Both the position numbers and the translations under genes were made by a program. The notes below the pieces were generated by a model. That model had not been told where the DNA came from. It saw only the letters and a list, made by a program, of their open reading frames with translations, and did no database searches. A DNA stretch of 64,000 nt from the NCBI RefSeq assembly GCF_003576345.1, contig NZ_QWGB01000014.1, positions 1-64,000 of the forward strand, in the 5' to 3' direction. Position 1 is the first letter of the stretch, and each line of letters begins with the position of its first letter. Of this stretch, positions 38,808-40,034 are shown in pieces. The stretch is from Henriciella barbarensis. GTDB lineage: Bacteria; Pseudomonadota; Alphaproteobacteria; Caulobacterales; Hyphomonadaceae.

Positions 38808-38850
38808 GGCGTCACCCTGGATGGCGCAGCCATCTGGGGGGCATCTCCTG
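38808..38850 (+). repeat. Diverged copy (R1) of the GIY-YIG-flanking palindrome
   Basis: GGCGTCACCCTGGATGGCGC... to GCATCTCCTG follows the same frame as R3 at 39317-39361 (shared GGCGTCACCCT at the start and CATCTCCTG at the end), but the hairpin arms differ (ATGGC-gca-GCCAT). Same orientation as R3, opposite to R2. Confidence 0.75.
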
Positions 38851-38947
38851 TCTCTGAGTTCGGCCGCACAGGTCGAAGGGTGTCCAATTCTCCGAGAATT
38901 GGAGGCCCAACTACCGTTGCGATCATATAGAGGCGTCAGAAGCTGGA

Positions 38948-38981
38948 CCCTCAGACCGCTAGCGCGGTCGAGGGTGACGCC
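38948..38981 (-). repeat. Inner inverted repeat arm (R2) beside the GIY-YIG gene
   Basis: 34 bases, identical in inverted orientation to 39317-39350. The arm is itself palindromic: CCCTC/GAGGG and ACCGC/GCGGT pair around GCTA. It ends 11 bases from the stop of the nuclease gene. Confidence 0.9.
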
Positions 38982-38992
38982 AGATAGGCAGG

Positions 38993-39295
38993 TCAACGCA
39001 CCAGCTCGAACCAGAGATCACGCCAGTCAGGGTTCTGTGCTTCAATCAGATTGATCTTGTTTTGTCGTCGGTAGGACTTGATAGATTTCTCACGATAGAT
39101 GGCCTGCGAGACGAGGTCGTGGACCTCGTACCAGACGAGGTGCTTGCAACCATATCGCTTCGTAAATCCCGGAATGTGACCCTCGCGGTGTTCGCCCACG
39201 CGTCTTACTAGATCCGATGTGACGCCGGTATAAAGCGTACCATTGCGACGATTGGCCAGCATGTAGACGGCGGTCACCTTATCCCAGCTTGCCAT
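38993..39295 (-). CDS. GIY-YIG endonuclease domain protein
   Basis: 100 residues from MASWDKVTAVYMLANRR. A single GIY-YIG (URI) nuclease domain: VYML at 10-13 and LYTG at 21-24 replace GIY and YIG, catalytic Arg in DLVRRVGEH (31-36), TKRYGCKHLVWYE and the glutamate in IYREKSIKSYRR. It has no extra DNA-binding domain. Such genes are common in Alphaproteobacteria and have no settled function. The gene fills almost all the space between the two arms of a perfect 34-bp inverted repeat, so a nuclease acting on those palindromes is an attractive inference. Confidence 0.92.
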   Translation of the reverse strand: MASWDKVTAVYMLANRRNGTLYTGVTSDLVRRVGEHREGHIPGFTKRYGCKHLVWYEVHDLVSQAIYREKSIKSYRRQNKINLIEAQNPDWRDLWFELVR

Positions 39296-39316
39296 CTTTG
39301 CCTGCCATCAGTGTTA

Positions 39317-39361
39317 GGCGTCACCCTCGACCGCGCTAGCGGTCTGAGGGCCCATCTCCTG
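39317..39361 (+). repeat. Outer inverted repeat arm (R3) beside the GIY-YIG gene
   Basis: 39317-39350 is the exact inverse of R2, and similarity to R1 continues to 39361 (CCCATCTCCTG). It lies 21 bases upstream of the nuclease start codon. R2-gene-R3 together span 403 bases, like a miniature mobile unit. Confidence 0.88.
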
Positions 39362-39422
39362 CCTTCGCCATGATCGCCACGTGGAAGTTCAGTAGATGGT
39401 CTTCCAGATGGGCTTCGCGGCC

Positions 39423-40034
39423 TTAAGCCGCCGCGCTTTCGCGCTTCGCAACGCGGTCGAACCAGGCAGCGATATTCTTGAAGTCGCGGTTCAGCGGTTG
39501 GCCGACTTGTTCACCGAAAGCGAGGAAGCAGAACAGCAGGATGTCGGCGAGGGTGAACTTGTCACCGGCGACATAGTCGCGGTTCGCCATCTGCTTGTCG
39601 AGAAACGCGACATTGTCCTGCGTGAAGGCTTTCAGACCATCGGCCGCTTCTGGCAGGCAGCGCACACGGTCCTTGAACATTGGCAGGCCCTCGGCCCCGC
39701 GAAAGGCGGTCGTCATGGGCTCGACGATCTTGAGGTCGACCCAGCGGGTCCAGCGGCGGGTCTGGGCGCGCTCTTCCGGCGTCGCGCCGATCAGGCTGTC
39801 GCCGGGGCTGGTTTCGTCCAGATACTCGCAGATCGCCGTGATTTCGGTAATGAGCGCGCCGTCATCGAGCACCAGCGCTGGTGACTGACCGTGCGGGTTC
39901 TTTTCCAGATAGTCGGGTTGCCGGTTCGCGCCGGCCATGATGTCGATCTCTTCTTTTGGAATATCGACCCCGCGCTCTGCCATGAACATGCGTACGACGT
40001 GCGGGTTTGGTCCGACGGAATTATAGAGTTTCAT
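39423..40034 (-). CDS. Glutathione S-transferase family protein
   Basis: 203 residues. The thioredoxin-like N-terminal domain has MKLYNSVGPNPHVVRMFMAERGVDI, the GSH-binding NPHGQSPALVLDDGALITEITAICEYLDE with a Gln-Ser-Pro turn and Glu-Ile-Thr segment; the helical C-terminal domain contains FTLADILLFCFLAFG. It conjugates or reduces electrophiles with glutathione. The catalytic N-terminal residue is likely Ser6. Confidence 0.9.
   Translation of the reverse strand: MKLYNSVGPNPHVVRMFMAERGVDIPKEEIDIMAGANRQPDYLEKNPHGQSPALVLDDGALITEITAICEYLDETSPGDSLIGATPEERAQTRRWTRWVDLKIVEPMTTAFRGAEGLPMFKDRVRCLPEAADGLKAFTQDNVAFLDKQMANRDYVAGDKFTLADILLFCFLAFGEQVGQPLNRDFKNIAAWFDRVAKRESAAA

Follow-up and report, generated by a model that had tools for sequence, protein, structure and literature searches.

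A family of small GIY-YIG nucleases is a strong candidate for the partner enzyme of CGTC REPs, a class of short repeats that has been described as having none. The case starts from a 100-codon gene of Henriciella barbarensis, situated in the 64,000 nucleotides of contig NZ_QWGB01000014.1 that were analysed (the window), and set there between two pairs of tagged hairpins. Similar flanking recurs throughout the nuclease family and, on sequence comparison, the repeats that flank each gene follow the subfamily of the nuclease. Such a link, family-wide and subfamily-specific, makes the origin and persistence of CGTC REPs directly testable with pairs of enzyme and hairpin.

A gene between two repeat dimers

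The components of the locus are as follows, G016 being a close relative of the same genus.

38808 to 38850, forward strand: R1, a diverged REP, outer partner of R2, 85% identical to R3 over the first 20 nt.
38937 to 38981 (core 38948-38981), reverse strand: R2, a CGTC-tagged REP hairpin downstream of the nuclease gene; fold as single-stranded DNA, z -4.2.
38993 to 39295, reverse strand: intact gene for a GIY-YIG nuclease of 100 aa (PF01541, E 8.3e-15).
39317 to 39361 (core 39317-39350), forward strand: R3, a CGTC-tagged REP hairpin upstream of the nuclease gene, exact inverse of R2 over 34 bp; fold as single-stranded DNA, z -3.4.
39390 to 39422, reverse strand: R4, a decayed REP, outer partner of R3, aligned to the fuller R4 of G016.

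R2 and R3 are exact reverse complements, forming a perfect 34-bp inverted repeat whose match runs on to 45 nt at 93% (38937-38981 with 39317-39361), and they stand 11 and 21 nt from the ends of the gene; in these respects, and in the assignment of the nuclease, the preliminary description was borne out. Each arm reads CGTC - ACCCTC - GACCGC - loop - GCGGTC - T - GAGGGT/C - CCA. When folded as single strands, R3 and R2 each give a stem of 11-12 bp, interrupted by one bulged T and closed by a loop of 4, at -13.0 kcal/mol (z -3.4 against shuffles) and -13.8 kcal/mol (z -4.2) respectively. The CGTC superfamily of REPs is characterized, in the available text of its description, by a palindrome that carries an unpaired tag, CGTC (or TGTC/CCTC), on one of its ends (PMC3733652). 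Both arms read CGTC and then the stem, and both end in a short tail of the kind that is mostly CCA, R2 in GAGGGTCCA and R3 in GAGGGCCCA; the canonical R2 form used for genome-wide matching has the tail TCCA. R2 and R3 are REP hairpins of the CGTC-tagged kind, with a CCA tail and a stem from which one T bulges. A chance origin of the arms was considered and rejected on the perfect inverse pair of 34 bp, the two z-scores and the family-wide controls given below.

R1, also present in G016, is a diverged direct copy of R3 with an inner stem that has changed yet is still paired, as had been claimed for it; the wider claim that the arms are hairpins stands for R2 and R3, whereas the fold of R1 is unremarkable (z -1.25 against shuffles). 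R4 had been missed, along with the CGTC tag and CCA tail and five more copies of the arm elsewhere in the same genome. Its fold is no longer unusually good (z -1.13 for 39383-39425), and it is recognisable because it is fuller in G016; from that comparison follows the plan of the locus, which is dimer R1-R2, gene, dimer R3-R4, each dimer having its CGTC tags at the outer ends. Between R1 and R2, the spacer (38865-38921) carries an inverted repeat of its own, with 28-nt arms at 75% around AATTCTCCGAGAATT, and so recalls the structured spacers reported for some CGTC dimers.

The protein, by its domain and its conserved positions, belongs to the GIY-YIG nuclease superfamily. Among 16 aligned sequences, window included, Y11, R32, H36 and E69 do not vary and Y22 hardly does, and these five we take to be the GIY-YIG catalytic positions; N88 is invariant among seven, again with the window included. 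The gene is under strong purifying selection, dN/dS with the G016 copy being 0.043. In the same comparison the dS of the nuclease is 0.98 against 0.40 for the neighbouring GST gene, and therefore the two nuclease genes may not be simple vertical descendants.

Flanking repeats across the nuclease family

How general is this arrangement? Set 1 consists of 120 regions around the best homologues from 101 genomes, the window's own genome among them. It covers the top 122 homologues among the matches listed, counting the window's own and leaving weaker matches aside, from which locus L148 (no gene hit) and gene L114 (too little flank) were dropped. When the 300 bp upstream was compared with the 300 bp downstream, inverted repeats scoring at least 32 were found for 61 of the 120 homologous genes versus 7 of 538 control genes from these regions, the controls being simply chosen open reading frames with some false genes among them (Fisher 5e-44, a value overstated in that genes are not independent); mismatched pairs of flanks reached the threshold in 4.7% of 2000 cases. 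On counting direct as well as inverted repeats the figures are 79/120 and 11/538, so that the eventuality raised in the preliminary description, of most homologues being without flanking palindromes, did not cleanly occur among the homologues examined; of the 59 genomes represented, 49 contain one or more repeat-flanked nuclease genes.

Set 2, from named genomes, was the best 80 of 493 relatives from a scan and is biased to closer relatives; the scan used a narrower alignment, the broad alignment A1 being too diverse, and removal of five loci already in set 1 and of one short-flank gene left 74. Inverted repeats flank 42 of these 74 versus 2 of 127 controls, and inverted or direct repeats 52 versus 3, the taxa including alphaproteobacteria, Methylococcaceae, desulfobacteria and a Thermodesulfovibrionales bin. 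The remainder, 41 of the 120 genes of set 1 and 22 of the 74 of set 2, fell short of the threshold for repeated flanks.

CGTC-type hairpins were scored in the same flanks. They stand on both sides of 30/120 nuclease genes versus 7/531 controls in set 1, and of 48/73 versus 4/126 in set 2; on at least one side the counts are 62/120 versus 92/531 and 68/73 versus 31/126. A lone hairpin is frequent beside other genes as well, and therefore what distinguishes the nuclease is the pair. Whole dimers with their spacer also occur in direct orientation on both sides of the gene, some of them more than 90% identical (L302, L274, L263, L300). The association of nuclease and repeat is family-wide, and neither chance nor neighbouring genes account for the flanking.

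One control open reading frame, in locus L154, scored 34 on account of its place inside a REP array; it has no Pfam match. The array (L154:2100-3000, contig C11 of the window's genome at about 846400-847300) has a dimer of the window's own arm type, designated type A, mixed with other CGTC-type hairpins, and is about 1.9 kb from a different GIY-YIG gene (C11:848490). It suggests that REP families accumulate in shared places.

Correspondence of hairpin and enzyme

Arm similarity rises with protein identity among the 61 flanked genes (1830 pairs; Spearman 0.35, equalled in 0 of 1000 permutations, a test that in common with our Fisher tests ignores shared ancestry), and the covariation of arm with nuclease subfamily that had been put forward as a check is thereby seen. 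Arms are common to 1% of pairs at 40-50% protein identity, to 34% at 60-70% and to 75% at 70-90%. Paralogues within one genome share arms in 2 of 22 pairs and have different arms in the other 20.

Type-A arms, searched in the 101 genomes with a strict pattern, are present in 17, the reversed pattern giving 0 in all 101. They occur in seven of the nine genomes with a clade-A gene versus 10 of the 92 without (Fisher 3e-5), clade A comprising the genomes with a best match below E 1e-40 (nine genomes, the next at 5e-37), a border that was set after the arms had been seen and is less clear by identity alone. The preliminary description had asked whether the arm might be found equally often far from any GIY-YIG gene and without a phylogenetic link to it: the clade link holds, whereas ten of the 17 arm-bearing genomes are without a clade-A gene. 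Nine of those ten are of the window's genus, and therefore shared ancestry contributes to the link of gene and arm.

By the strict pattern, copy number is low, from 1 to 14 per genome. The inner stem of type A varies and is fully paired in 32 of 36 distinct copies versus a shuffled mean of 11.3 and maximum of 18, with G-U counted as paired and two of the six pairs fixed by the search pattern in data and shuffles alike. Pairs with tags outside comprise 10 of 14 copies in G036, 4 of 9 in G047 and none in the window's genus, by a pattern that misses diverged partners such as R1 and R4. Contigs C17, C20 and C24 of G036 have type-A REPs at their very ends (positions 55-209), so the draft assembly seems to break at these REPs and their number there is probably underestimated.

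That the arms are bidirectional terminators or mRNA-stabilising hairpins, alike on the two sides by coincidence, is very improbable. REPs often sit after genes and many are plausibly transcribed, according to the available text of PMC3733652, but there is no T run after the window's arms, the collected hairpins have a conserved tag and tail beyond the stem (features for which they were chosen), and the match of arms to enzyme subfamily is sequence-specific.

Hairpin number and nuclease also go together, to a degree. CGTC hairpins were counted with a covariance model whose source hairpins had been picked for exact pairing, tag and tail; those features are therefore no independent evidence, and the model served for counting only; 73 candidates were scored per genome under strict filters, and high counts are lower bounds. 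At least 10 are present in 15 of the 101 genomes, of which 14 have a homologous nuclease versus 55 of the other 86 (p 0.03), and the rank correlation is 0.44. Exceptions are G088, with at least 24 CGTC REPs and no GIY-YIG homologue, and G073, with at least 63 and only a weak GIY-YIG relative (E 5.7e-5).

Occupied, empty and inverted sites

In G047, of a related genus, copies of a dimer are scattered, among the matches listed, as a unit of about 120 nt whose edges are sharp. Empty sites had also been sought, and one syntenic site holds the dimer in G047 and G106 and lacks it in G126; it is the one clear case, with which gain and loss are both compatible. Neither a target-site duplication nor an excision product of the gene-bearing unit was found. 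The preliminary description had envisaged a 403-bp unit as a self-propagating repeat or part of a nuclease-maintained palindrome family: the association has stood, and the unit that looks mobile would instead be the dimer, some 120 nt long, one of which stands on either side of the gene.

Two further observations deserve mention. At the site that is filled in G047 and G106, G130 has (L226, contig C4, next to 226585) what looks like a fused remnant, CGTCACCCTCGATGC-GAGGGTGACG, as though the dimer had collapsed by deletion between its two hairpins. In G047 a stretch of about 500 bp (C1 near 1098300-1098809; L182 / L217, query about 730-1237) adjoins the dimer and, among the matches listed, is repeated three more times elsewhere in that genome at 91-93% identity; it is perhaps an insertion sequence or a paralogous segment that begins directly behind the dimer.

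At the window's own site, synteny could be followed in nine of 18 fetched GST loci, those with a MarR-like gene within reach. Of the nine, only the window's genome and G016 have the nuclease gene. G004, G009 and G002, where the gene is absent, have one similar REP at the R3 position; G012 has two REPs and no nuclease gene, and G017, G018 and G005 have no REP. The R3-like REP is thus kept at more of these sites than the gene, and so the gene cassette may have landed beside an older REP. Seven further clade-A loci have no neighbouring genes in common with the window or with each other, two of the seven nuclease genes being hidden by the simple gene choice.

Could REPs then be hot spots in or beside which the gene lands, its enzyme having no specific relation to them? 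A similar REP does occupy the R3 position in five other genomes (G016, G004, G009, G012, G002), four of them without the gene, and ISPpu9 is reported, in the available text of PMC8450116, to insert into REPs. Nevertheless such an explanation is improbable: few control genes in these loci have flanking repeats, the type of arm goes with the subfamily of the enzyme, and 20 of the 22 same-genome paralogue pairs differ in their arms.

The window's genome and G016 are collinear outside the arms but have the segment enclosed by them in opposite orientations, and the 34-nt arm cores are identical within each genome and different between the two. Recombination between the arms explains both the inversion and the identity of the cores within a genome. 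A break made by the enzyme would favour such recombination, though ordinary recombination, or a choice made in assembly at a short repeat, could also be responsible.

Might a RAYT or IS200-type transposase move the unit, with the nuclease as passenger? Y1 transposases are present in 21 of the 101 genomes searched, but there is no Y1/RAYT match (PF01797) at E 0.001 in the window's own genome, whereby a RAYT supplied by that genome was rejected. Moreover, CGTC-type hairpins stand on both sides in one (L168) of eight fetched Y1 loci, L164 of the eight not being properly measurable, and the 2013 survey, in its available text, has no tyrosine transposase gene flanked by CGTC repeats (PMC3733652); a transposase-driven unit is scarcely credible. 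Two Y1 transposase genes in relatives (L165 and L166) are flanked by long inverted repeats that were not scored as CGTC-tagged hairpins, the L165 arm beginning with GCGTCACTCCGTGACGC, and they resemble the TIRtrons of that paper (PMC3733652, available text).

What might the enzyme do?

Architecture, generality of the flanking, match of arms to subfamily, presence or absence of dimers at matching sites, purifying selection and inversion of the gene between its arms are all matters of observation. The reading that we favour, and think reasonably probable, is that an Ssn-like nuclease with a REP family of its own would constitute a REPtron-like unit, a GIY-YIG enzyme taking the place of the HUH transposase, with spread driven by nicking and repair. 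'Ssn' GIY-YIG nucleases are said to have been shown in a 2025 study to cut single-stranded DNA at cognate repeats, the Neisseria meningitidis enzyme reportedly doing so with NTS repeats, and homologues having different cognate sequences.

The small nuclease would recognise, in single-stranded and folded form, the CGTC-tagged hairpin that belongs to its family. Such strands may be exposed at replication forks or during DNA uptake, and the enzyme would then nick the single-stranded REP DNA, most likely at the unpaired tag or tail. Host repair of the nicks might occasionally copy, move, homogenise or invert repeats. The gene with its two dimers, R1-R2 and R3-R4, would be a gene-bearing copy of the REP family, and gene-less copies would be those scattered in the same and related genomes. 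Hairpin binding, single-strand cleavage and spread by cleavage and repair are what we infer here, the nicking and repair because of the fold, the need for tag and bulge in E. coli TnpA-REP, and the reported Ssn work. Specific recognition would be the safer part of the scheme and self-propagation the less certain part.

A nuclease may also be imagined that acts on REPs without spreading them, whether by modulating DNA uptake in the manner of Ssn or by restricting single-stranded DNA, its flanking repeats marking or regulating its own gene and REPs spreading in some other way. In favour are the modulation of natural transformation reported for Neisseria Ssn, the small number of cognate REPs in Henriciella, the 10 of 17 genomes in which type-A REPs persist although a clade-A gene is absent, and the strong purifying selection on the gene. 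Several genes, however, have almost the same complete dimer on either side, the two arms of a genome have changed in concert, and clade-A genes sit at unrelated positions, all of which is more element-like, and we judge a purely non-spreading role unlikely, if worth keeping in mind.

The REPtron-like reading has a bolder extension, which we advance tentatively and hold to be slightly less likely than not. Small GIY-YIG nucleases might be the missing partners of the whole CGTC superfamily, each subfamily reading its own hairpin, and gene and dimers might disperse themselves via nicking and host repair and not via strand transfer by a transposase. This would be a second, HUH-independent origin of REPtron-like units in Proteobacteria and beyond. 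The subfamily-specific link itself would make many new pairs of enzyme and recognition site available as tools for single-stranded DNA.

Relation to known systems

The Ssn family would be the nearest relative in function: reportedly it too combines a small stand-alone GIY-YIG nuclease with a dispersed cognate repeat, as found here. The window differs from it in host lineage and in a repeat with a long stem and a bulged T. Documented for the window's family are the dimer-gene-dimer layout, subfamily matching, inversion and an empty site, and part of the layout may already be described in the Ssn paper. No link between GIY-YIG nucleases and REP sequences came up among the papers listed by a search that covered mainly open-access journal articles. 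UPF0213 GIY-YIG proteins (PDB 1zg2 and 1ywl) have the same domain by sequence and are distant from the window's nuclease (E 8e-4 and 0.51).

CGTC REPs, in the available text of Di Nocera et al. 2013 (PMC3733652), are a mostly alphaproteobacterial superfamily with mostly CCA tails and a predominance of tag-outside dimers, comprising four published families, CGTC-1 to CGTC-4, with stems of 8-9 bp and loops of 4-5 nt. The window's repeats are like them in the CGTC/TGTC tag, the CCA tail and, for R1-R2 and R3-R4, the tag-outside layout, while the type-A stem is of 11-12 bp with its bulged T; type A fits the superfamily by tag and tail and fits none of the four families. The same text describes CGTC REPs as without a dedicated transposase and reports none associated with them (PMC3733652), whereas here they are gene-linked.

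Like RAYT/TnpA-REP REPtrons and REPINs, the window's unit has an enzyme gene between its own REP hairpins and gene-less copies dispersed. E. coli REPs also carry a bulge in the stem, as the window's arms do, and in the available text of PMC8266576 that bulge is needed for TnpA-REP cleavage, the tag being required too. The enzyme, however, is a GIY-YIG nuclease instead of an HUH/Y1 transposase, and the tag is CGTC, not GTAG. The parallel with RAYTs and REPs for a nuclease of different fold, drawn in the preliminary description from a single locus, stands up well, the association being family-wide, following subfamily and exceeding the neighbour controls. Such a link would mean that enzymes of two unrelated folds had arrived by convergence at one layout, in which tagged hairpins surround the enzyme's own gene.
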